Below are positions 4,001 to 62,353 of a stretch of DNA of 64,000 bases, piece by piece (positions within the stretch are counted from its first letter, which is position 1; each line of letters starts with the position of its first letter). The notes beneath the pieces were generated by a model. The model did no database searches. It was not told the origin of the DNA and saw nothing but the letters and a program-made list of their open reading frames with translations. Origin of the DNA: Dioscorea cayenensis subsp. rotundata (taxonomy: Eukaryota; Streptophyta; Magnoliopsida; Dioscoreales; Dioscoreaceae); contig NC_052476.1 in NCBI RefSeq assembly GCF_009730915.1, positions 1,302,001 to 1,366,000 on the forward strand, read 5' to 3'. The translations under genes and the position numbers were made by a program.

Positions 4001-5472
4001 TTTATTGCTTCCATCTTGTATGACGATGTTGTCAGGATGTATATAAGTTAGCCTTTCTGCAGATAGTTGCCTTGTTGGCTGTGCATGTTTGTGTTGTTTA
4101 ATTTCTCTTCTACCCATATGTGTATATAGTTATCATGTCTTGGCTAACTGGGGAACCTATAGATCAGTGCCTTCACAGGTTTATGCCTAACCATAATAGT
4201 ATCATGGTTTGTTTGATTACATGATGAATGCTTATCAGGATAGCATGTTTTGAATCCAAGCCCTATCGTTTTCATCTAGCATGAGATGTGATTTGAATAT
4301 TTGGGGTTTTATGCAACAGCTCTAAGAGTGAACAATGTGTTTTCCTGATGTTATGTCTCGATGATGTTTTGTCGTAACTTAAACTACAAACAGTTTGTTC
4401 TGATCATTGGTTACTTGATTATGGTTTTGTCGCGCTGTGCAAATTTAATACAAGCCTATGTTGGCTTAGTTATCTTCAGAGTAATCATGAATTTCTGATA
4501 TTGAAAATGCTATAAATTAATGCAGAGAATGCAAACAAGACATATTGCTAAATTTACATACTGATATAACAGGGAGCAATCTATCTATAATTAATCAATC
4601 AGTAAAAATTTGGAAATGGAAAATGCTGAGATACTTCAGGGTGTTAGACATGATGCAGCCATGCAATAGCATACCAATATACATCTATACTCACAAATAA
4701 GTACATCCTTAAAAAATATTATGTGTTTTCCAAATGTTATGTCTTGAGTTTTGTCGTATCACAAATTACAACAAACAGTTTGTTCTGATCATGGTTTACA
4801 TAATTTTGGTTTTGTGGCTCCATGCAAATTTAATATAAGCCTATGCTGGTTTAGTTATCTTCAGATTAAGTCATGAATTTCTGATATTGAAAATGCCATA
4901 AATTACTGCAGAGAATGTAAACAAGACATCTTGCTAAATTTACATACTGATATTACAGGGAACAATCTATCCATAATCAATCAATAAGTAGATATTCTGA
5001 AATTGAAAATGCTATCGGATATTTCAGAGTGCTGGATAAGATGCAGCAATGCAATTACTAGCTACATCTATGCTCACTAAATAAGTGCATCCTTCAAAAA
5101 AAAAAATTTATGATACTGAAAATGCTGTAAATTAGTTCAGAGAATGCAAAACATAGCAGCGGCACATCACAGACAAACTGATATGAGATGTAGCAATCTA
5201 TGTTTACTACACAAGTGCATGCTTTCAGGCGTGTAAAAAGAATTTGTGAAATTGAAGATGTTATAATTTACTTGAAAGGCCTGCAAGACAAGATGCGGCA
5301 ATGCACTTGAGTGCCGATATAACAGGGAACAATCTATGTAATCAATAAATAAGTGCATGCTTGCTTTCAGATGGTCAAAAAGTAAGGAAATTCTGATATT
5401 GATAATGTCAACAAATTACTTCAAAGATTCCAAAAGAGGCAATAGTACACTTACTGATTGTTTGATGAATGA
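4001..5472. repeat. Convergent intergenic region with diverged tandem repeats
   Basis: This lies between the 3' ends of TPS (+) and TBL (-). From about 4330 to 5460 a block of about 370 bases recurs in diverged copies. Shared words are 'acaaacagtttgttctgatc' (near 4390 and 4780), 'gctaaatttacatactgat' (near 4549 and 4934) and 'acagggaacaatctat' with 'aataagtgcatgc' (repeatedly from 4950 to 5360). Copy one is about 4330-4700, copy two about 4725-5090, and partial copies follow to 5460. No coding potential was seen. Confidence 0.65.
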
Positions 5473-9005: not shown

Positions 9006-10434
9006 CACGGAGAGACTTGGTAAATGGGTCGTAGATGGGAAGCGGATCGGGTTGGATGAATCTCCCGGATCCGGATCCGAATCCCGATCCGGTACCAGAC
9101 CCGTTATGGTTGGAGAACTACTCTGCCTGCCTGTCACGTAATGAGTCTGTTTGATGTGGAAGATTTCACGAGACAGCACAAAACAACTACTATTGTTATG
9201 TGTTTGATTCAACACAAATGATCGAATCAATACTGCATAATTCCCTAATTTTTTTTATCATAATAGTACACAAATTTTATCGGGATACAGGATAACTTAA
9301 TGATAAATTTATCTTTATTTAAAGTTAAAAATTACAATACTATATTACAAATGTGATAGGATATGATTTATTTATTTATTTGTTTGATTTTTAGGATTAA
9401 GATTATAATGAAAGTTTGTAACTTTGTTGTGGATTGAATGTGTTATAAAATTATGTTGTGTTTGGATTTAGTTAATTTTTTAACTTGTTGCTATGTTGTT
9501 AATCCTTGTAAAATTTGATTAGATTTTCATAAAATATTAATATTATTATTATTATTTATTATAAAACAAATATAGAATTATAAAAAATATTATTGTAATT
9601 GTACTATTTTGTGTTCTCTATTTATACAAATCAAACACTAAACAACAAAAAAAAAAATTGTATTGTCCAATAAAAATAAAACATAGAACAACACAAGCAC
9701 TTGTGTTGTGTTTTAACCACTAGTCTTTGTACTGTATTACTTGTGTTGTTCTCATTAACGAATCAAACATATTTTATAAATGTGTCTACTTCCGAATTAG
9801 ATTGGATCTCATGAATCTTTATCCAAATCTCCAGATCCAGGACCAAACCGTTGTAGTTAGAGAACTACTCCTTTTTATATTATAATTTATAAGTATGTGT
9901 ATTTCTAGATTATGTAGATTTTAAATTATTTGTCCACATAATTAATTTAAGTGTTAATCTTTAAATTTAATCTTACTCATTTATTTAAATATTTTATTCT
10001 CCATTATTATGGTTTTAAATACATAATTTTAGTATATAGAGAAAAAAAAATAGGAAAATTAAAAAAAAAAAATCTAAATTTTTATAAGGATAGATCCACT
10101 CCATTGGATCCGCATCCAATAAGAAAGGATATTATAAGTCAAGAATGTCAGCTGCCATAAAAAATGGGTTTGCCCGTTAAATGATCTGTTAACCCTCCAC
10201 AACGGTTTTGTGTGATTCTTTGGCTGCTTTGAAAAGTTAGTCAGATCCCTGAAAGCATTGATTAAAGGGAGATGATCTTATGGGCCGATTTCGTGATAGT
10301 TTATGATATCTTCAGCCTTGAATTACCTTAATTTAAAAATTTTTAAAATAAAAAATAGTAATTTTTTTAATAAAATTATTAATTTATTCTTATATCATAT
10401 AATAAATAAAAAATAAACTTTTTATAAAACCATG

Positions 10435-18830: not shown

Positions 18831-22713
<3,883 letters not shown>

Positions 22714-45200: not shown

Positions 45201-47524
45201 AACTAGACAAAATATTGACGATGGGCTGCTAGACATGCTCGAAGGAAAACTTACTGTCCTTAAGTTCCAAATGAAAATCTAAAGAGGAGCTGGACTCAAT
45301 TGCATCAAGTCTTGATGATGTGCAAAACATCACTGAATCACTTCAAAACAATTCCTTTCCGCATAGCAACCTCATGGCTGATGCCAGTTTTGCTATAGCT
45401 GCTAGGGAAAAGGCTAAAGAGTTATCGTTAGAGTTAAAAAGCATCACTCAGCTATACAACGAATATGCCGTACCTTTTAGACTATGGGAGGTTTGTTCTT
45501 TTCACTAGTAGCCTTTTGGCAATTTGCTTCCAAGCTTTATCGCATGTAAATGCTGTTTATGAAGTTTCCTTAGGTACATTATGCTCAGATTTCTTTAAAG
45601 TCTGTGTGGCTTTACCTACTTGCCATTCCTACTCTCAAGTTTTTAAGGCCCGCTATTACTTGAAAATATTCATGGAAATTCAAGAAATTAATCATCCAAT
45701 TACTTATTTGCTCAGATATGCCTTGAAATGCTCAACTTCGCCAACTACTCTGGAGATGCTGACAGTAAAATTGTTAGGGAAACCTGGGCTCGACTTCTGG
45801 ACCAGGCTCTTTCCAAAGGTGGTGTCGCTGAAGCTTGTTCTGTGCTTAAGAGGGTTGGATCTAATCTTTACCCTGGAGATGGGGCTTGCTTGCCTTTAGA
45901 TACATTGTGCCTTCATCTTGAGAAGGCCGCTCTGGTAAAAATTCTAGATTCCCTTCATATAGTTACTTTTTTTGTTTGTCCATTTGGTGGATAGGAGTAC
46001 ATATCGATGTTTCTCTGCCCTGGGTGTGCTCGCCATCCGTTAGGCTTACCATGTCTGTTACATTCTTTAGGGTTTCCATAGTTCATTTCTTGTTTCAGCT
46101 TTGGTATACTGGTATTTGGCCCCTTAATAATGGAACATTACTAAATGTCCAAAACCATGGACAATCTAATCTATTGATGCAGCAGCATGCTGATTATTAC
46201 TTGTAACTTACTAGCACTGTTCATGTTGATTTACCAGTTGTATGATTTTGTGTGTGGAATGTAAACTAGACACCTAACTAAAGCTCTGGTGTGCTGCCTA
46301 CCAAGTTTAGTTGACTTGTAAGGTTTGGCTCTATTGTTCAAGGTCTAAAGTAAAGCTTCTGTACAGTGCCAAGGTTGCATGTAATGGTTCTAAATGCACC
46401 CGGTTTTGGGTGTTTGTGGCACCTTGTGCTGACTATTAACTTGTCTATTCATGGTTGCATTTTCTTGAAACTTTCAACTGTGCTCTCTTGTTACTGTAAT
46501 ATGCTTCTTTGACAGGAGCACTTGAGCTCTGGAGTTGAACTTGTGGGAGATGAGGATGTTGCAAGAGCTCTTCTTGCATCATGTAGGGGTGCCCCTGAAC
46601 CTGTCTTAAGCATCTACGACCAACTGTTATCAAATGGAGTTATTTTGCCTTCACCAATCTTGAGATTGCGTCTACTTCGATCAGTTCTTGTGGTGCTTCG
46701 TGAGTGGGCTATGTCTATCTTTGCAAATAGAATGGACACAACAACAGCAGGGGGCTTCATTCATTTTTGGTGGGAGATTGAGCTTGGAACAGACGACAAT
46801 GGTAAATCAAGGAGTTCGGGATAAAATCACAAGCGCATTAAACAGGTCAGTTGTGCCATCTTTCTTCCGGAAAAGTGGTTTTTACTCTTTCTTTGCATTT
46901 ACTTTTGGGCTTTTAAATTTCAAAAAATTCTAATCTTTCCATGACAACGTGGATGTTATTTATGAGAATACGAACTTGTAGTTGCTTGTTCTAAAAAAGT
47001 TTCACATTTCACTGTAGTGTTATATTGTCAATATGAAATCATGGTGCTAGTTGGCTTTGTTGCCAATTCAGATTGAATCAGTTGGTTGTTTTGTTTGGTT
47101 TAGAAAATTTTGACACTTTTGGAAGAATATAGGAAATTTTTTCAAAAATTTTGAAAATCATCACCATGGCAATTCTCGACTGCTCACCAATACGACGAAA
47201 CAATAGGATGTCATTTGATTTGTCCTTGTTTTTCGTTACATTTCCCTTCATAGTTTTCAATTGATACTTTGTTATTTGTATTATTTTCTTCGGAAACACG
47301 GAAAAAAAAAAGACTTTCTACTGGTTATCATTTCGATCAACCATACTAGTTTTTCTATTTTTTCGGAATGCAACACATTTATTCGATGAAGTTCATGATT
47401 TACCAGGTATATGACCGAGGTGCGACGATTGGCTCTTCCGCAAAGCCAGACCGAGCCTGTTTACCGAGGTTTCCGAGACCTCGAGGAAAAGCTACTTGCT
47501 CCGTCTTCTTTGCCAACATTTTAG
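39211..47524 (+). CDS. NUP155: Nuclear pore complex protein NUP155 (two single-base frame breaks)
   Basis: There are 13 exons: 39211-39369, 39731-39900, 40242-40368, 40735-40997, 41305-42955, 43027-43239, 43442-43689, 43955-44378, 44844-45049, 45135-45490, 45716-45934, 46516-46845 and 47407-47524. The product would be 1493 aa, close to plant NUP155 (about 1460). NUP155 is a scaffold nucleoporin of the inner ring (Nup93 subcomplex): an N-terminal beta-propeller (about 50-500) and a C-terminal alpha-solenoid. Clear matches include LDLEEALEASRYASHP, EWPPLFEVV and AGASFIFGG-type residues. Two breaks occur. In exon 10 a T at 45280 turns ATC-AAA-GAG into ATC-TAA. In exon 12 the five-G run at 46750-46754 has one G too many. 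Dropping these two bases makes every phase close, so a sequencing or assembly error is likely, but true lesions are not excluded. Confidence 0.95.
45280..45282 (+). other. Frameshift/stop in NUP155 exon 10
   Basis: TAA appears where the family has Lys-Glu-Glu (reading IKEEL). Without T45280 the frame continues from KFQMKI to KEELDSIAS. Confidence 0.85.
46750..46754 (+). other. Frameshift at a G5 run in NUP155 exon 12
   Basis: Reading GCA GGG GCT TCA needs four Gs; the window has five. Downstream the other frame gives SLEQTTMVNQGVRDK, which is the conserved sequence. Confidence 0.85.
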
Positions 47525-48207
47525 ACTTCATTTTCATCCTACTCCGAAAAAACACAAAAAAAGGGAACTGTTCTAATGAGCTGAGAGGTGAGGTTGGTGT
47601 GTTACTCCATCAAAAGATTAAAGATTGTTGTGTTTGAACTCCAGCATTTTAGATTTTTCATGTAACTCTACATTGCAAGAACTTTCAGTGGTTATTTGCT
47701 GTACCATATATGATTCAATGAAACCTTTTTGTGATTGATATTTCTTTTTAACTTCTACTTGTCAACCGTTAAAGCCAAAGGTGGTGAGAGTTTAAAATTC
47801 ATCTAGAAATCAATGGTAGTTTGGACTTTTTGTGTGAATACAAAGGTAACTTTTGACTAAGAAGGGAAGGGTTAACTTTGAAGGTGTTACTTATTTATGT
47901 TAGTTTCCGGTCTGAATTTAATGTGGCACAGAAATTATGGAAAGTTAACTCTTTTACGATTGTCTAAAATTATAAATTTTTTATTTTGTTTTATATATAT
48001 AATTCAGAGAGTTAACTGCTGTCAACGAAAATGTCTATCAGCTTAATATCTTTCAATTTAAGCTGATAGATCAGATATTAAATAAAAAAAATTAAATATT
48101 TTATATATATTATGTGAGAATTTTTTGTGATTATATGAAATACAAAAAAAAAATATTATAAAATAGAATAAATCAGAGAGATTAATAATTCATTTTCTTG
48201 TAGTAAA
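47525..48207 (+). other. NUP155 3' UTR and spacer before the MULE
   Basis: This is AT-rich. A perfect 12-base inverted repeat (CTATCAGCTTAA at 48035-48046, reverse complement at 48058-48069, 11-base loop) is the only structure noted. Confidence 0.6.
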
Positions 48208-48216
48208 TAAAAATAA
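48208..48216. repeat. Left 9-bp target-site duplication of the MULE
   Basis: TAAAAATAA, identical to 57478-57486. Confidence 0.85.
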
Positions 48217-49811
48217 GGGAAAATTACTGTTCACCCCTCGTAATTTTCAAAACTTCCCAAAAACCCCCTCCTACTTTTTACACACCACTCTGACAAATCC
48301 CTTCCATAGTGTTTAACTTCCTTTACCCCCACTGCTCACTTCAAATGGGCTCCATGTCATGAAATCCCATTTTTACCGAAAATGGTCGGGAAAGCGAAAG
48401 CGCCAAATCACATCATGCTCAACCTCAGCGCTGTCAGCTTTGGTTTCGATAAAAATGGCAAGGAGTTACATTACATCTTGTTGTTCTCCTCATTATCATA
48501 CCCGAAATATATAAACTCGGTTTCTCGAATGTAAAACGAAATTGATTTCCATCGGATTGGTCAAGTGCACTTCATCTTCAAATCGAAACTGTAGTCGATT
48601 TTTATCGTCGAGGCGAGCATGTGCCATTGTCGCCTTCTCGCTTTATGGTTGTAAAGTTAGTATTACTGACGAGAAGAACGAAAGTAATTACGATTTTCAG
48701 TTCATTTCGTTGTAAAAGTTCTTCCTCGCTTTATGGTTATCTATTTGTATATTTTTAAATAATGTTTAACTATTTTCTATTATCCGCTTAAATATTTTAC
48801 TAATATGTTTAATAATTATCATATCCGCTTTAATCACTTCCCATCTCCGCTTTAACATTATCTTTACATGTATAACTATTCATAAACGTGTAAATTCTCA
48901 AAAGTCTCGCAGAAACGGTGATCTTTTTCGCTTTGATCTCAATTGTTGGCATGTGCACGCAGTGGCAAGGTGTGAGTGAGGATCCCTGCATGCAAGAATT
49001 AATGACGGCATTAATTCTTATGCACGTCAACATAAATTTCCGAACACCCGCTCGCTCTCATCACCAATGTCGGCCATCGTGCGCTTTAACTTTTTTTCTC
49101 GGATACGAAGAGTCACCGCTCGTGGACTTCACACCATAAATAACCGTGAAGAACCCTCCCCATGGACAACCACTCCCTCGCCGTCCTCGCTCATCCTCCT
49201 CCTCCTCCTCCTCCTCTTCCTCCTCTTCCCACGGACAACCACTCTATCTCGAGAAAACGATGTTTGCGTGAGCCTTCTTCCTCTATCTTGAGAATCGATC
49301 AGCCGTAATCATCGAACTAGTTAAACTATCTTTTCGCCTGCCGTGAAGTCCTCTCATAATCGCTCGAATGCAGAGGATTCTCCAAATGCATGGATGACGG
49401 AAAGCAATTAAGAGAGCATTTCGACTTGGGTATGAAAAGAAAGTTTTTCACGCATTAGCGTGATTGCGTGAGGATTCTCTAGAGGAGGAGATCACGAAAC
49501 ATCCTTTAAGACGGGGTCGACATTTACCACTCGAGACTTTCCGTTAACGCTTTAAGAAAATTACGCCAGTGTACAACCCGAGTACGCCTCGTGTTTAACT
49601 ATCGGGATCGCTGCTTAAGTCCCTACCATGACACATTGATTAATAGTCGCTTTCACGAATGTGTGTTGTTTAACCTTTTTAATGTTAGTACGCTTTTGCG
49701 TGTTCAAGTCTGATGCGCTTCTTACGCAAACGCACGTGAGCATTCGAATGTATGTACACTTGTTTCGCTATATCGAGGGTCGAGTCGTGAGTGTCCAAAG
49801 TCCGAGCGGAC

Positions 49812-49868
49812 GTTGTAAATGTTGTAAATGTTGTAAATCTTTGTAAATGTTGTAAATGTTGTAAATAT
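49812..49868. repeat. GTTGTAAAT minisatellite
   Basis: About six 9-10 base units of GTTGTAAAT, one with a CT insertion, in the 5' part of the MULE. The unit reads Cys-Cys-Lys in one frame, but this is probably non-coding. Confidence 0.9.
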
Positions 49869-50502
49869 TTTATAAATAAAACGAAACAATCGTATTTGAC
49901 TGTGAACTTCGAAATTTAAACAGAGACCTAGTAAAAACAATGGGAAACAAAAAACGTCATTGTAAACAATAGAAAAAGTTAAACAATACTCAAGTTACTC
50001 TTTTAAACAATGACAACGGTGTTTAAGAAAATACGTAAATATGTTTAAACAAAGTGACCCGTGAGGTACCCATCTAGCAACGCCGATGTCGCTGAAAAGT
50101 CATTCAATTTAAAACAATAACATATTATTTACATGATATAGACTTTTAGTTAAACAGGCTAACTCGTTATTTTAAACACTATATGTATCTGCTTAAACAT
50201 AAAAAGCTTAGGCGTTTATACGTAGACTCGTGTTGAGTTGAGAACTTTCATTCGAACGACGACAACATGTCTTCCTCACGACAACGACATATATTTCCTT
50301 TTGCCCTTGGGATGGAGGGAAAAAAATACCGCCCAATCACATCACGCCTAGTCTAACCTCTATGCATACAACTGCGCACTTTTTTGTTCATAGCCTCGAC
50401 CGCTTTGTTCTTTACATCTTCTACTTCTTCTTCGTCGCCTTCGCTTTTGTTCTTCATTTCATTCTGGTTTTCAGTACGATTTGGTTTTCGAATCGATATA
50501 TT

Positions 50503-53050
50503 ATGGAGAGTTTTTTTGTGGTATTGCTAGATTCAACGGGAGGGAAGAGTGCTAATGTTCACGACTCGGACTTCTTGGGAATTGCGTTAGTCGAGATATG
50601 TGAGCGATGGGGTCTCAAGTTTCTCTTGTCGTGGTTAAGTTCATCACACGGACGGATATAAAAACGGTTTCGCCTAATAGAAACGGATGTTGACTTCCAG
50701 TCGATGTGTCACGTCCCACTCCATCTTCAAATGTGTCAGTAGTCGATCTTGTCGTCGAGACGTAAAATGTGCTATTGCCATCCTAACGAAAACGAGGTTT
50801 ACTCGTCAGAAGTTCCTTTTCTTTAATTATTCCGATATCCGGGGTCATTATTGTTTAAATATGTCCGTCATCGGGTTAACATATCGTACTAGTCCTTTAC
50901 GTTATTAGTTAATTGTTTAAGTATTTAATTTAACGCTTTAACTATTGTCATTATCGCTAAACATTGTATTCTCCGCTAACATATCGATCTTTTTCATTTG
51001 ATCGAAGTGTTGGCAGGAATTCGGATTCCGCGAGTGCTCCCATTCATCCCCATAGGGCGACTCGACGGCTGGGATGTCTTCCCTTCCTCGCCGATCATTC
51101 GCAAGTGTTGTCGTTGGATATTGGTCAACGCTTTTGACGGTGTCGAACATTTCGTGGATGTACTTGAAATCATGCAATCAAAAGGAATTTTTGACTTCAA
51201 ATTCATAAAGAACGAAAAACATCGGTGCGATCGTGGAATGCGACGCCGATGGTTGTCGTTAGGCGCCTCATGCATCAAAAGAGTATAACAAAAAATACTT
51301 TCGTAATCAAGACAATCAACCCGTCCACACACTTGCGGTGGTGGCGTAGGTTCGAGCGCCACATCCGAAAAGCGTCCCAAAAATGGGTTAGCGCACGCAG
51401 TGATTCGAAGCTCAGGGACAGTCCCCTCGTACAAGGCCATCGACATTCGAGAAGCGACACGTTGTGGGAACATGGTGTCCACATACCATACAAGCGAGGC
51501 TTGGTTGGGAAAAGAGCATGCCCGGGTGGTCCTCGACGGCAGTGACATCTCCAGGCTATGATCGCTTGCTTTGGTATGTGGATAAGGTGGGTCGAGACAA
51601 ATCCCGTAGCAGGCTGCGATCGTGGAGAGAGACGGTGATCGCTTTTAAACGCGGCATTCTTTTCTTTCGGCCGCGTGTATCAGGGGATTCAAGAGGGCTT
51701 GCAGGGTCAGCTGTTTCTCGATGGTACCCACCTCCTTGGAAAATATCGGGCACACTCACTGCGCGTGCCGAGGAAAGATGGTAACAATGGTTTTTTCCAC
51801 GCCGCCTTGAGTATAGTCGACAACGAGACCGATGCCAATTGACTTGGTTCATATCTAAGTTGGGCGATGCCTTATCACGAGGGTGGAGATTATCATGAGA
51901 TAATTACCTCGCCGTGTCGGACAGTCCGAGGGCCTTGTGAGAGCGCAATTGCGAGTCTTCCCTTCTTCGCCACATGCGCATCGCCTTCGACATTTGAGGC
52001 CAATTTTATGAAAGCCAATGTCGGACTTGGGAAGGCATTGAGGGATGAGTCTCTGGTCCATATGCTTCCGCATTGCGTGGGCATCCACGGCTAAAAGATT
52101 TCGATGATACAGTGAATGAGCTGCAGCCATATCACCCGAAGCTCATCATCGGTTGATTAATAAATCGGATATGGCACATTGGTCGAATTATCTGCTCGGA
52201 GGTGATCGTTGGGGTGAGATGTATTCGAGCGTCGCTGAGTCGTTCAATGCTTGGATCAAGGAAGCTCGTCATTTCACGGGTGACGAAAAATGGTCGACTC
52301 CATAAGGTCTCGCGAATGTTGATTTACACTTAACATTTTTGTATTACCCTTTAAACATTCTCAATCTTTGTTTAATTACACTTTTTCCCGACTTTAAATA
52401 TTAATCATTTCGCTTTTTAATTACAATAATGTTTTAAACATGTTGATGAATTATTTAACCATCATCGTCTTTGTTTAACCTTATTTTGCGAGTTCGAGTT
52501 GATGCGCATGTTATGTAACCGCGAGTGAGCAAGCGACCAAATGGGAGACCTACTTATGCCCGAGACATACATTCGAAGTTAGAGATCATTGTTGAGGGAC
52601 GACCGAAATCTTCGTGTTGGTCGTTAGTGTCGATGATCGTTACGAGTGATCGACCAATGCAGCGACTCCGTGGATCTCGCCATCGAACTTGTTCGTAGTC
52701 GAAGGTGGCAAGTTTATGGTATCCCTTGCAGAAACATGCTTGCGTAAAGAATAATGCGATGGGACACCAACGTACATCGATTTATGAGCGGGTACTTCAC
52801 CGTCGACAATTACAAACCGGCGTACAAGGAAGCTATATTCCCCCATACCAGACGATGACGGTGCCTTTCGGGACGGAATCGCGAGCTTCGTTATGCGGCC
52901 TTTTGTGACTAAAAGCGGCACTGGGCGGCCTAGAGCGAAAGAGGATCGAGTCGCATGGCGTTTGATGTCCGCGAAGTTACATTCATGGCATGGCCGAGGA
53001 TCCGTCACGATCGGCGATCTTCTGATGTAAACTCGTCGCCGACTAGGCAT
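50503..53050 (+). pseudogene. MULE transposase (MuDR-type) with frame disruptions
   Basis: A patchwork of plus-strand frames gives a MuDR-type transposase. In order: an N-terminal part (about 50503-50950); the plant MuDR domain with a Cys/Trp-rich segment (about 51100-51290); YDRLLWYVDKV (about 51550); the DDE catalytic domain, with D in FLDGTHLL (51720-51722), D in VSD (51920-51922) and E in AESFNAW (52237-52239); the ANFMKANVGLGKALRDE segment; and a SWIM zinc finger WQVYGIPC…HAC (about 52695-52755). All three catalytic acids are present. At least six frame changes separate these blocks. It is either a decayed copy or one hit by consensus indels. Introns may explain some gaps. Confidence 0.75.
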
Positions 53051-53539
53051 TGTTAATAAACCGAGCGATGATGGGAAACATTGTGTATTTATAACGAATT
53101 GAATGTATTTTACACGCGAGACATTGTTATTTTAAACGGATACATCTGTAATTTGAAATATTTCAAACCGATGTTTAAAGCGATGAATTGAATTGTGTAT
53201 TGATGGGCAACTTTCCATATTTAGTTAAACAATAAGTGCATTCATTTAAACAGAGAAAGTGTTATTTTTAAACGAGTACAACGTAATTTGAAATATTTAA
53301 AAGCTGATGTTTAAACGATATATACTATATTTAAACAATGAAAGTGAAATGTACACAAGCACAACGTAAATTAAACAATGAAATAAAACCGAATGGAATT
53401 TAACCCGCTTTACAATTCAAAACAAACAAAATTTACATTAAGGTATACAAGTCATGTTCTTCGAACACGAAAACAATGAATTGAATTTGTCAGATTTACG
53501 TTTGAAAACAAAATTGACGATCGGATATACAAGACATGT

Positions 53540-56500
53540 TATTCAAAAACATGATTTAACCCGCTTGTGACGACCCCTTTGTCATGGGACGCGGTACCGC
53601 TCCTCCTTAAGTATCGCGGGTAACATACCGTGATCGAGGTAAGGAACGTGCATGCTGCGGTGGCCGTAACTTCTCACCCCACGAATGTGCTCGATAAACC
53701 GCATGGCGTGAGCGGCGCGATCGACGCTTCCTTGTTTTGGCGCTGGGGTTTTACGTAGCCGTCACGCGGCGGGTACTTTTGATCGTCAGACTCAGCTTAA
53801 CTCCATATCGACACAAAGGTCGAATAGATTCCACTGCCGAGATATGCAAGTCGAGATTAGAATACCGATTTAAATACCAAAGCGAGATATTAATCGGACG
53901 TAATTAAAGAACTTACCATGTCCAACAGCGTCCCTTATCGTACCCGGACATGAAGAATAATACTCAGTATTCTTGATTATCATTGTCCGGACGACGACAT
54001 GGAAGTGGCCATTCATGATTATCGGGAGGATGACAATTTGAACTTATGCAGTGCTTGCGCAGCGATCCCGATCATAGCCATAATGTGTGTCGTATGCGTC
54101 GATGCACGCTTTGACATAAAGCAGTATGAAGCGGTCGATGATGGGCGCTTCTTGTAAGGATATGGCTCTTTGCTCAGCGACTTTTGTATTATGCATCGAA
54201 AAGCGTCCCATCACATCATCGGTGACCATCTCCTTCCCTCAGCGGTGTATAACACGTCAGCGTGTGGTCGCGGCGTCGTTCTTCCACACGGCGGTCTTTG
54301 AGGTTAAACGATAACAGATATTAGAAGACCATATTGTAAATATTTAAATGATATTATCAATTGTTACATGATATTATATATAATTAAACGGTAAGGCGAA
54401 AACTTAAATGATAACATAATGGTATTAAACACTATTAGGTAATATTTAAACACTATAAGAAACCCTTTAAACAATATCATAAAAACGTTACACTTACCCG
54501 TCCATAGTGCAGTTGAGGAAGATCCTCATCAACTCCTGCTCGTATTTGTTAAGACGACTCAGGCCAACCCATTTCTTCTTCTTCGGAATAAAAGCTTTCC
54601 GAGCCGTATGGTCCAATTTTTGATTGGCCTTGATCATCTCTCTCGTTGCTCGGTCGGGGTCTTCATCAGCATCTTCCTTGGATGCGGGGACGATGGCGAC
54701 AGCATCAACTGCAGACACATCCTTACATTGTTGTTCTTGTTGTGGGATTGTGTCTGGCTTCGATGCGGGGACGACGGCGACAGCATCAACCGCAGACACT
54801 TCCTTAACTTGTTCTTGACCTTCAGGGATTGTGTCCATCTTTGATGCCGCAATCTCGGCAGCCGGTTCCACCGGGTCGACGATTTCATCGAGAAGAGAGT
54901 CAACGACCTTCTCAACCGCGGCAACGGCCACATCATCTACGATGTCCTCCACCGTCATGGCCATGTCATCAACGGCGACAGACTCGATATGACGATCGCA
55001 CCGATGGTGTTGCTATTGTTTCATCGTCGGACCGGCGGTGGAGACGAGGCGATGTGTTCTCCTCTTTTTCGCAGAGTCTCTTGAATGTGGCCGCCTTGGA
55101 ATGACCTTCCCGATGATGTCGTCGTCAGTCGAAATTCCGGCGCCTCGTTCGTCCCGGGTGCTCGGTTCTTTCGAGGGATAGGCGCGACCGGTCTGTGAAA
55201 GCGTCCTTCCGGCTCACTCGCACGGCGACAAGCCGAGGAAACTTCGGTCGTCAATATCAGCAGTACTGCGTAAGAGTTGCGGTGACATCTTCGCCCAATG
55301 TCACGGTAGGTGCCGTCACTCGGAGGGCTGCCATGGTCGGGGGATCGTCGTTGTCGTGGTAGGGAGGGTTGTTAGCAATCTGCGGGGTAGGGGAGGGCTT
55401 CTCGGGCGTCGAGGAATCGTGCTGGCGTGGTGGGGTCGGAAGTAGGAGAGCAGGGCGTCCAGGCAGCATGATGAGGTCGCTCTCTCGTCCTCGCTTCGAG
55501 CTAGCGGTTCGGGAGCAGATGGCATCCATCCGGTCGGGTTGGGCGCCCAACAAATATTTCTTCTTGACGATTCGCGAACCAGCTCAGGAAACTATATATT
55601 TAAAGCGTTATAGAATATAATTAAGCGGAGAGACGAGAATATTTAAACGGTTATTAATAATAGTTAAACGGTAAATACTAAAGTTAAACGCTATGTTTTA
55701 AACATTAAAGACTTATGTTAGACATTGTCCATGATTTATTACCTCTTTTCCATCGACGATGACTAAGCTCAGTTTCTCACCGTCACTTGCTTCGGTGAGT
55801 ACTTTTCACCGTAGCAGCGGACATCCTTGGGATCTTCTTAGAAGCGGACTTTCTTCCCCTGATCCGATCTCGTAAAACCGAGGCGTTAAGCGCGACCGAA
55901 AGCAACCCTTAATGTATCCCACATGTTGGTCTTCTTCCCGCGCATCTATCTTGCACTCGGGCGGCAGCCATGGAATATCCTCCATAAGCCACTTGTGCGT
56001 CAGCCTCGCGCCCATGCGTATCGCCCCATACGGGCTGGTAGATCATCGACGTAGTCAGCGATCCGAGTTCGGAGCCGAGCATGATGTATTTGGGAAGAGG
56101 GACTGTCCCTCATGAGGTACACCATCGGGAGTTTGACAAAAATTATCTTCTTCTCCCTCAGTCGAACAAGTTGCACTGAGTGCTCTTGATGGAGTCTCTG
56201 TGTCTCGTGGGTCTTTGATAGATACTGAGCCTTGAACGCACGACACGGTTTTCTTCTTCGAAGACCCGACTCGCGTCGCCATCGCATACGCAGACCAAGA
56301 ACGACGGGCCACATCTTGGAGGTGCTGAAAACTCGGCGAGCTTTCCCCGATCCACGAATTTATTGGTGCGACCATCGTACGCTTTGCAAAAAAGAGAATC
56401 AAGAAGGGCCCTCTCTTGGTATATGGCTTCCGACTCGATGAGCGCATAAGCGGTGTCCTTCGAATAATCTCCCGATGTCGAGGGTCATGTTAACTTTCAA

Positions 56501-56960
56501 TTCGATTTAAGGTCTCACATGCTAGGTGTCGAAATAGCGCCCATTAACTAGGTTGACGCCAGTAATCACTAGCTGCGAGTATTGACAAAAAGTTTAAGCG
56601 TTAATATAAGGTTTTTAAGCGGTAAACTCTCGGTTATTAAGCAGTAGATATAAAATGTTAAACGAGACCCATTTTGTTAAAGCGAGAGACGGAATACTTA
56701 AGCAGAGAGCAACAAATGTTAAGCTGAACATCTCATTTCTTAAATGTCGACCTCGTTTGTAAAAACGCAGCCATATCAAGCGAAGCGGAAATGTACATTA
56801 TAAATATTACACAAATCATAACGATCGAAAAAAACTATTTCGAGTAGTGTATACATCTAAAATCGCAAAAACAAAACAAAACCCTAGCAGAAATCTCCTG
56901 CAGACTAACAAAACCCCAGTGAGAAATCCCCTACGAGACTTGATATCTTCCAACAAAAAG
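53540..56960 (-). pseudogene. Ulp1-like (C48 peptidase) gene carried by the MULE, disrupted
   Basis: On the minus strand, blocks read as an Ulp1-type protease remnant. Upstream exons (about 55800-56460) hold an N-terminal region with SAPPRCGPSFLVCVCDGDA and KLPMVYLMRDSPSS. A Glu/Ala/Val-rich segment (54494-54964) contains two near-identical copies of VSAVDAVA-VVPAS. The protease domain (about 53600-54230) has GHFHVVV (candidate catalytic His) and HAMRFIEHIRG. The residues before HAMRF read D-R-A instead of the family's D-C-G, so the nucleophilic Cys codon (TGC expected) is CGC. Frames are broken several times. Known plant MULEs carry such genes; their role in transposition is not settled. Confidence 0.55.
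54494..54964 (-). CDS. Acidic repeat exon of the Ulp1-like gene
   Basis: An open 156-codon stretch has an internal duplication: two copies of about 30 residues (VSAVDAVA…PASK) flank QEQQ-type linkers. It ends in a basic KKKKWVGLSRLNKYEQEL segment that probably leads into the protease domain. An intron-like AT-rich spacer with repeated motifs separates it from 53600-54290. Confidence 0.45.
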   Translation of the reverse strand: MAMTVEDIVDDVAVAAVEKVVDSLLDEIVDPVEPAAEIAASKMDTIPEGQEQVKEVSAVDAVAVVPASKPDTIPQQEQQCKDVSAVDAVAIVPASKEDADEDPDRATREMIKANQKLDHTARKAFIPKKKKWVGLSRLNKYEQELMRIFLNCTMDG

Positions 56961-57477
56961 CAGGAGCACAAAACAAAACCGAAAAATCTTTCTTTAGTAA
57001 CGTAGCAGTTAACATAAAACCATACTCGATACCTTAGATTGCAAGTCGATGAAATGCCAACTAGTTAGCATGGGACTTCTCCTTCGAGATCTGGGTGGAA
57101 AGGGAAAAGGCGATGAAATGGCAATTCTGAGGCTTGCCGGTAGAGACAACTTCGGAGGCGACTCGAAATGGAAAAAGTCGAAGGCGTGAGTTGAGAAAAA
57201 GCGATTAAACCAGCTCCGATAAATTAGCTCTCGAGTTCCTACTGGAAAAACCCCCACTTCCTCTCAAATCGCCGAGATGGTCGGTAGCCACGACTCCCCA
57301 TGCAAAGGCATTTTCAGTCAAAAATTTGAAAGCTCACTCAGATTGCATCAGATTCCGGGGTTTGGGGGTTTGAAAAAAACATAGAGCTTTTAAAAGGAGG
57401 GGTTTTGGGGATTCTGAAAGCTAGCAGGGTGTTTTTAGCGATTTCTGAAACTTAAAGGGTTTTTGTGCAATTTCCAC

Positions 57478-57486
57478 TAAAAATAA
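57478..57486. repeat. Right 9-bp target-site duplication of the MULE
   Basis: TAAAAATAA, identical to 48208-48216. Confidence 0.85.
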
Positions 57487-61353: not shown

Positions 61354-62353
61354 NNNNNNNNNNNNNNNNNNNNNNNNNNNNNNNNNNNNNNNNNNNNNNN
61401 NNNNNNNNNNNNNNNNNNNNNNNNNNNNNNNNNNNNNNNNNNNNNNNNNNNNNNNNNNNNNNNNNNNNNNNNNNNNNNNNNNNNNNNNNNNNNNNNNNNN
61501 NNNNNNNNNNNNNNNNNNNNNNNNNNNNNNNNNNNNNNNNNNNNNNNNNNNNNNNNNNNNNNNNNNNNNNNNNNNNNNNNNNNNNNNNNNNNNNNNNNNN
61601 NNNNNNNNNNNNNNNNNNNNNNNNNNNNNNNNNNNNNNNNNNNNNNNNNNNNNNNNNNNNNNNNNNNNNNNNNNNNNNNNNNNNNNNNNNNNNNNNNNNN
61701 NNNNNNNNNNNNNNNNNNNNNNNNNNNNNNNNNNNNNNNNNNNNNNNNNNNNNNNNNNNNNNNNNNNNNNNNNNNNNNNNNNNNNNNNNNNNNNNNNNNN
61801 NNNNNNNNNNNNNNNNNNNNNNNNNNNNNNNNNNNNNNNNNNNNNNNNNNNNNNNNNNNNNNNNNNNNNNNNNNNNNNNNNNNNNNNNNNNNNNNNNNNN
61901 NNNNNNNNNNNNNNNNNNNNNNNNNNNNNNNNNNNNNNNNNNNNNNNNNNNNNNNNNNNNNNNNNNNNNNNNNNNNNNNNNNNNNNNNNNNNNNNNNNNN
62001 NNNNNNNNNNNNNNNNNNNNNNNNNNNNNNNNNNNNNNNNNNNNNNNNNNNNNNNNNNNNNNNNNNNNNNNNNNNNNNNNNNNNNNNNNNNNNNNNNNNN
62101 NNNNNNNNNNNNNNNNNNNNNNNNNNNNNNNNNNNNNNNNNNNNNNNNNNNNNNNNNNNNNNNNNNNNNNNNNNNNNNNNNNNNNNNNNNNNNNNNNNNN
62201 NNNNNNNNNNNNNNNNNNNNNNNNNNNNNNNNNNNNNNNNNNNNNNNNNNNNNNNNNNNNNNNNNNNNNNNNNNNNNNNNNNNNNNNNNNNNNNNNNNNN
62301 NNNNNNNNNNNNNNNNNNNNNNNNNNNNNNNNNNNNNNNNNNNNNNNNNNNNN
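61354..62353. other. Assembly gap of exactly 1000 N
   Basis: A run of 1000 Ns. The round number suggests a placeholder of unknown true size. Confidence 1.

Follow-up and report, generated by a model that had tools for sequence, protein, structure and literature searches.

The 64-kb window, which is the whole stretch of DNA analysed here, contains between positions 48217 and 57477 (+ strand) a Mutator-like element (MULE) of 9261 bp flanked by a 9-bp target site duplication. In our judgement it is rather probable that this element is built like the Kaonashi and VANDAL elements, that its noncoding motif arrays are bound by the protein of its antisense gene, and that a second copy of the locus represents a haplotype with an excision footprint.

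The duplication, TAAAAATAA, is exact on both sides (48208..48216 and 57478..57486, both on the + strand). The same 9-mer occurs eight times on the + strand of the window, a frequency of about 1.2e-4 per position that makes a match at one fixed position unlikely, and the position of the element is set independently of the 9-mer because its boundaries are shared with other copies in the genome; a chance origin of the matching 9-mers, which the sequence-only reading had allowed, is therefore very unlikely. The element begins on the left with GGGAAAATTAC and on the right, read inward, with GTGGAAATTGC, and these ends are degenerate terminal inverted repeats (48217..48276, + strand; 57418..57477, - strand) in which, by our own count, 41 of 61 alignment columns agree across the outer 60 bases. 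Over the outer 300 bases the inverted ends give a local alignment score of 56; 200 letter shuffles averaged 29.9 and reached at most 50. Both earlier claims, of a complete MULE within a perfect 9-bp duplication and of related inverted ends, are thus borne out by the exact 9-mers, the ends common to other copies, and the transposase domains found in sister copies. To the left of the element lies the TAG stop codon (47522-47524) of a frame taken for a putative NUP155, and to the right the ATG of a putative NFX1-like gene (57885), which, read from the sequence, lies the previously claimed 398 bp past the right 9-mer. Elsewhere in the window, positions 21100-22713 hold a LOV/kelch F-box gene of the ZTL/FKF1 kind, with chains of Adagio protein 1 as its best PDB matches. 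Within the element, 18 of 19 steps of 500 bp have a CpG observed/expected ratio of 1.03-1.74 and the last one a ratio of 0.65; the whole window has 0.75.

The family is abundant in the genome (584,211,761 bp in 2249 contigs searched): the left 301 bases yielded 1607 first-look candidates, of which 40, the window copy included, were scored. All 40 start at query base 1 or 2; those other than the window copy are 87-90% identical to it. Among 20 copies fetched for comparison (L009-L028), 11 align to base 9261 at the right end and two more to 9257-9258; of the copies with both ends, eight are 9.2-9.9 kb long and five are internally deleted (5.8-8.5 kb). Target site duplications were scored in the 13 copies with a readable right end (the right end being extended past the alignment by 4 bases in L011 and 3 bases in L017), as the other seven have no right end aligned in place. 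Perfect 9/9 duplications flank seven of the 13 (L010, L012, L013, L021, L024, L026 and L027) and comprise six different 9-mers, L024 and L026 having the same one; this is the outcome that the sequence-only reading had proposed to look for in other copies. In the remaining six the two 9-mers differ (8/9 matching positions in one copy, 2-7 of 9 in five). The left 9-mers of 21 loci indicate a target preference, with T as the first base in 18, A as the ninth in 19, and mostly A or T between. Thirteen of the 20 fetched copies contain a second piece matching element bases ~5028-5271 (~240 bp), which resembles a tandem duplication; the window copy has no such piece.

The sense strand of the element encodes a transposase in two parts: the DNA-binding and MULE catalytic part (51006..52338, + strand, located by tblastn with open reading frames of L026 and L027) and, after a presumed intron, the C-terminal part with a SWIM zinc finger (52469..52843, + strand, located by tblastn with an open reading frame of L015). 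From the window copy by itself, a Pfam search with ten pieces (five from the transposase region, four from the antisense gene, one from upstream) returned one weak MULE match (14.9 bits, cut-off 27.6), the others being at chance level. The reading frames of its sisters pass the Pfam cut-offs: L026 for MULE (68.9 bits) and Transposase_mut (32.5 bits), L027 for DBD_Tnp_Mut (80.4 bits) and L015 for SWIM (26 bits). In NCBIfam the L026 protein has an IS256-type similarity far below the cut-off, and a search of the PDB with the element proteins returned neither a MULE nor a Ulp1 match.

On the opposite strand lies a gene that resembles PMD/DUF1985 and Ulp1 genes, at scores below the Pfam cut-offs. 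Its PMD/DUF1985-like part (55949..56484, - strand) was located by tblastn with an open reading frame of L013, which scores 21.8 bits against PMD (E 1.3e-4, cut-off 34.9) and E 0.2 against DUF1985 in Pfam; NCBIfam gave no match to the PMD-like piece. The middle part (54497..55012, - strand) is an open frame of 172 aa that matches no Pfam family above cut-off. The C-terminal part (53684..54238, - strand) is probably of the Ulp1 (C48) kind: several copies have NGHFHVVV- and RQKQGSVDCAVYVMRF-like motifs with the residues H, D, Q and C, and the joined pieces match Peptidase_C48 with E 0.0033 (17.7 bits versus a cut-off of 20.7) over 32 residues. Pfam matched none of five stop-free Ulp1-like pieces from other copies and neither of two short ones, and the joined piece had no match among solved structures. 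The PMD-like protein itself retrieved 5118 first-look candidates from the genome, of which 150 were scored; by our own count, 19 of these 150 (46-54% identity) are stop-free, with open frames of 280-300 aa, and this sister lineage looks better preserved than the family of the window element.

The transposase frame of the window copy is broken as assembled. An uninterrupted transposase frame of 312 aa occurs in L026 (L026:3282-4217), which is 7.3 kb long and is missing ~2.1 kb, among this the PMD-like part of the antisense gene; between L026 and the transposase part of the window copy, 22 of 24 indels are 1 bp long. Some indels in this part are common to up to 12 of 13 copies, and the majority sequence of 14 copies is likewise frame-broken, which fits either transposition in trans of copies already broken or a systematic assembly error. 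Attributing all frame breaks to biological decay was rejected because the excess of 1-bp indels resembles assembly error. Nine pairs of copies have 0.31-0.59 indels per substitution, with 1-bp indels making up 69-81% of all indels, a pattern that suggests an unpolished long-read assembly of repeats, in which case both the ages of copies and their frame breaks are overestimates, as assembly error may inflate divergence. Private 1-bp indels are not marked by nearness to CG (22 of 53, versus 0.37 at random).

The sequence-only reading had found the perfect duplication to fit a recent insertion. This argument is not supported: seven of 13 other copies of the same diverged family keep perfect 9-mers. 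In a tree of 13 copies (left 4.9 kb) the terminal branch of the window copy (0.084) ranks third in length; the copy diverges from the plurality sequence by 6.8%, and of the other left ends scored none is more than 90% identical to it. The long branch, the distance from the plurality and the absence of any closer sibling among those matches all argue against a fresh insertion, although the assembly error suggested above may inflate the divergence.

The noncoding parts of the element contain arrays of a short, tandemly repeated motif, TTAA(A/G)C, an arrangement that also marks Kaonashi and VANDAL elements. It occurs 54 times on the two strands versus 12.4 expected from dinucleotides, and 52 of the 54 lie outside the coding-homology blocks (11.4 expected; binomial p 6.7e-9). 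The blocks themselves (3443 bp; tblastn blocks trimmed by hand) contain 2, with 1.8 expected, and the rest of the 64-kb window has no enrichment (60 observed versus 89.6 expected). From left to right, the motif forms a subterminal array (48764..48812, - strand, all three motifs on -), an array upstream of the transposase (49916..50198, both orientations), a group in the presumed transposase intron (52351..52478, recorded without strand), an array between the two convergent genes (53132..53376, + strand, two of nine motifs on -), two arrays in presumed introns of the antisense gene (54304..54472 and 55621..55703, both + strand), and an array upstream of the antisense gene that is subterminal on the right (56592..56724, + strand, six of seven motifs on +). 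The period in noncoding parts is ~21 bp: TTAA pairs 20-22 bp apart number 36, where the background for three distances is 3.8, and the spacing peaks again near 42 and 63. The linkers between motif cores are near random. As the core itself had served as the search term in the linker analysis, TTAA was also scored by spacing alone; the core follows in 36 of 52 TTAA within 20-22 bp chains of the window copy, versus 14 of 50 outside chains, and the contrast holds likewise in four other copies tested.

The motif is not confined to the window copy. Every one of the 20 fetched copies is enriched in it (2.1- to 5.3-fold), as are 20 of 20 loci retrieved by the PMD-like protein, two of which are the L013 and L024 elements over again, with best-piece DNA identity down to 77%. 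One sister family, read at a single locus with 52% protein identity, has an uninterrupted frame of 291 aa and, upstream of this gene, GTTTAA at a 20-bp period; this locus also has a GTGGAAATT end.

The combination of a sense MULE transposase with an antisense PMD/DUF1985-like, Ulp1-like gene is what gives the element the layout of Kaonashi (KI) and VANDAL elements. KI-MULEs carry a ULP domain antisense to mudrA (PMC2528002), Ulp1-carrying MULEs are known also in rice (PMC13317346), and VANDAL elements with a Ulp1-bearing VANC (KIU) are described in a review as acting like VANC, with motif targets in noncoding parts (PMC13317346). The window element likewise has a MULE transposase and an antisense, Ulp1-like gene, and its motifs too occupy noncoding parts, their binding being proposed here by analogy. 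Unlike KI elements, which are described as non-TIR, it has degenerate TIRs (~67% identity); its Ulp1 match is weak, and the TTAA(A/G)C motif with its 20-21 bp period is its own in comparison with the KI and KIU elements as far as the cited passages describe them. VANDAL21 (Hiun), with VANC21, also has a short motif repeated in noncoding regions and a second protein with DUF1985 (only DUF1985-like here, E 0.2), but the VANC21 motif is YAGTATTAY instead of TTAA(A/G)C, and its binding and demethylation are demonstrated (PMC5735166) whereas those of the window family are predicted. MULE groups with an antisense PMD have been tabulated (PMC6446971): MULE-Solanaceae_1, MULE-Monocots and MDR combine a SWIM transposase with a PMD that is sometimes antisense and have a 9-bp duplication where one is given, and the passages cited make no mention of motif arrays in them.

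The VANC proteins of Arabidopsis bind to short, tandemly repeated motifs in the noncoding parts of VANDAL MULEs (PMC5735166) and strip methylation from these elements (PMC5735166; PMC10398659). From the similar architecture of VANDAL and KIU elements, the arrays of the window element are read as targets of the antisense-encoded protein: they would be its predicted binding sites, two helical turns apart, through which it would hold methylation of the family low and preserve its mobility, as VANC does for VANDAL. Counting against the overall reading are the Ulp1 and PMD scores, which fall short of the Pfam cut-offs, the broken frame of the window copy as assembled, and the differing 9-mers of six of the 13 copies. 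In addition, CpG positions of the window copy have diverged by 13.1%, versus 7.1% at other C/G sites and 5.4% at A/T sites, so that this copy may have undergone some methylation decay; and two related families here have a GTTTAA core in common, whereas VANC motifs vary between VANDAL families (PMC5735166).

Two other functions, or lack of function, would account for the arrays. They might be sites of the transposase itself, subterminal and internal, and not anti-silencing targets; the arrays nearest the two ends are mostly opposite in orientation, as end-recognition sites would be, but arrays in presumed introns and between genes would be useless for end recognition, and we regard this as improbable. 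A nonfunctional origin as decaying minisatellites appears just as improbable. Noncoding DNA often undergoes tandem slippage, and several short arrays of ~21-22 bp (69-84% matches) are detected within the element by Tandem Repeats Finder; against slippage stand a core that is preserved between near-random linkers, and the recurrence of an identical core in separate clusters, in every fetched copy and in a sister family of another period. Binding by the antisense-gene protein is the preferred reading.

The genome contains a second copy of the locus from which the element is absent. The right flank matches two places, its own and C6:1375637-1376052. The stretch fetched for the second match (L049) begins with 694 N, followed by a match to window positions 48165-48217 at 100% identity and then directly by the right flank. 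Over 495 aligned flank bases this copy differs from the filled locus by 2 substitutions and 4 gaps, one of the gaps being three bases, GAA, at the insertion point, where the junction reads TAAAAATAA-GAA-TTAT. Among the contiguous deletions tested, exactly one (48218..57484, without strand) converts the filled site into this junction, exactly over the 110 bp compared. The GAA would then consist of the element's first base, G, and the final AA of the right duplication, following the intact left duplication; by our own reckoning, only 4 of the 64 possible 3-mers could arise by such a deletion. The most plausible reading of the junction is that of a footprint left by excision, on a contig of an alternative haplotype placed behind a scaffold gap, and its three extra bases point to loss of the element and not to its arrival. 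An empty site with a single TAAAAATAA, which the sequence-only reading had suggested seeking, is represented in the same genome by this copy, with the qualification that it carries the additional GAA; an element-free allele keeping both 9-mers, named there as what would refute that reading, was not what was seen, the junction having one full 9-mer and GAA. Since one of the two almost identical copies of the locus has the element and the other lacks it, some event here was recent.

This second copy, we infer, represents the other haplotype. Window positions 61354-62353 are a scaffold gap of 1000 N; taken with the gap that precedes the element-free copy, this suggests the placing of contigs from two haplotypes one after the other on C6. 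Since the element-free copy begins only 53 bp to the left of the site, beside an assembly gap, it could alternatively be a tandem duplicate or a misassembly, and the three bases by which it differs could stem from a separate indel in AT-rich sequence. An unrelated indel of this kind would allow the element-free copy to be the ancestral, unoccupied haplotype, into whose counterpart the element was newly inserted. The 2 substitutions in the 495 aligned bases agree with this, the three other gaps indicate that indels are not rare at the locus, and the donor of a cut-and-paste insertion may be gone from the genome. Against it, it would be a coincidence for an indel to fall precisely on the junction and to spell the element start plus the duplication end, no close sibling is found among the 40 scored left ends (the nearest is 90% identical), and the terminal branch of the window copy is long, though assembly error may lengthen it; overall we consider a new insertion unlikely. 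A never-occupied site would distinguish the two, reading TAAAAATAATTAT if GAA is an excision footprint and TAAAAATAAGAATTAT if GAA is ancestral.

It is possible, at a level that we would call tentative, that the family represents a VANC/KIU-like anti-silencing system with its own arrays at 20-21 bp spacing outside the eudicots, in the monocot Dioscorea, and that it has left at least one excision footprint. The review cited above dates the capture of Ulp1 to the monocot-eudicot separation and describes it as strongly conserved in eudicots (PMC13317346). Ulp1-bearing MULEs of rice being already in print there, what would be new is the target arrays and the anti-silencing. If the proposal is true, binding, demethylation and excision would be traceable at one defined pair of sites, two near-identical gene-flanking positions of which one has, and the other lacks, a large MULE 398 bp before a start codon. 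The noncoding arrays of the family predict what its second protein should bind, and, if the host is a monocot, this would test whether sequence-specific anti-silencing predates the eudicot systems described or arose independently of them.
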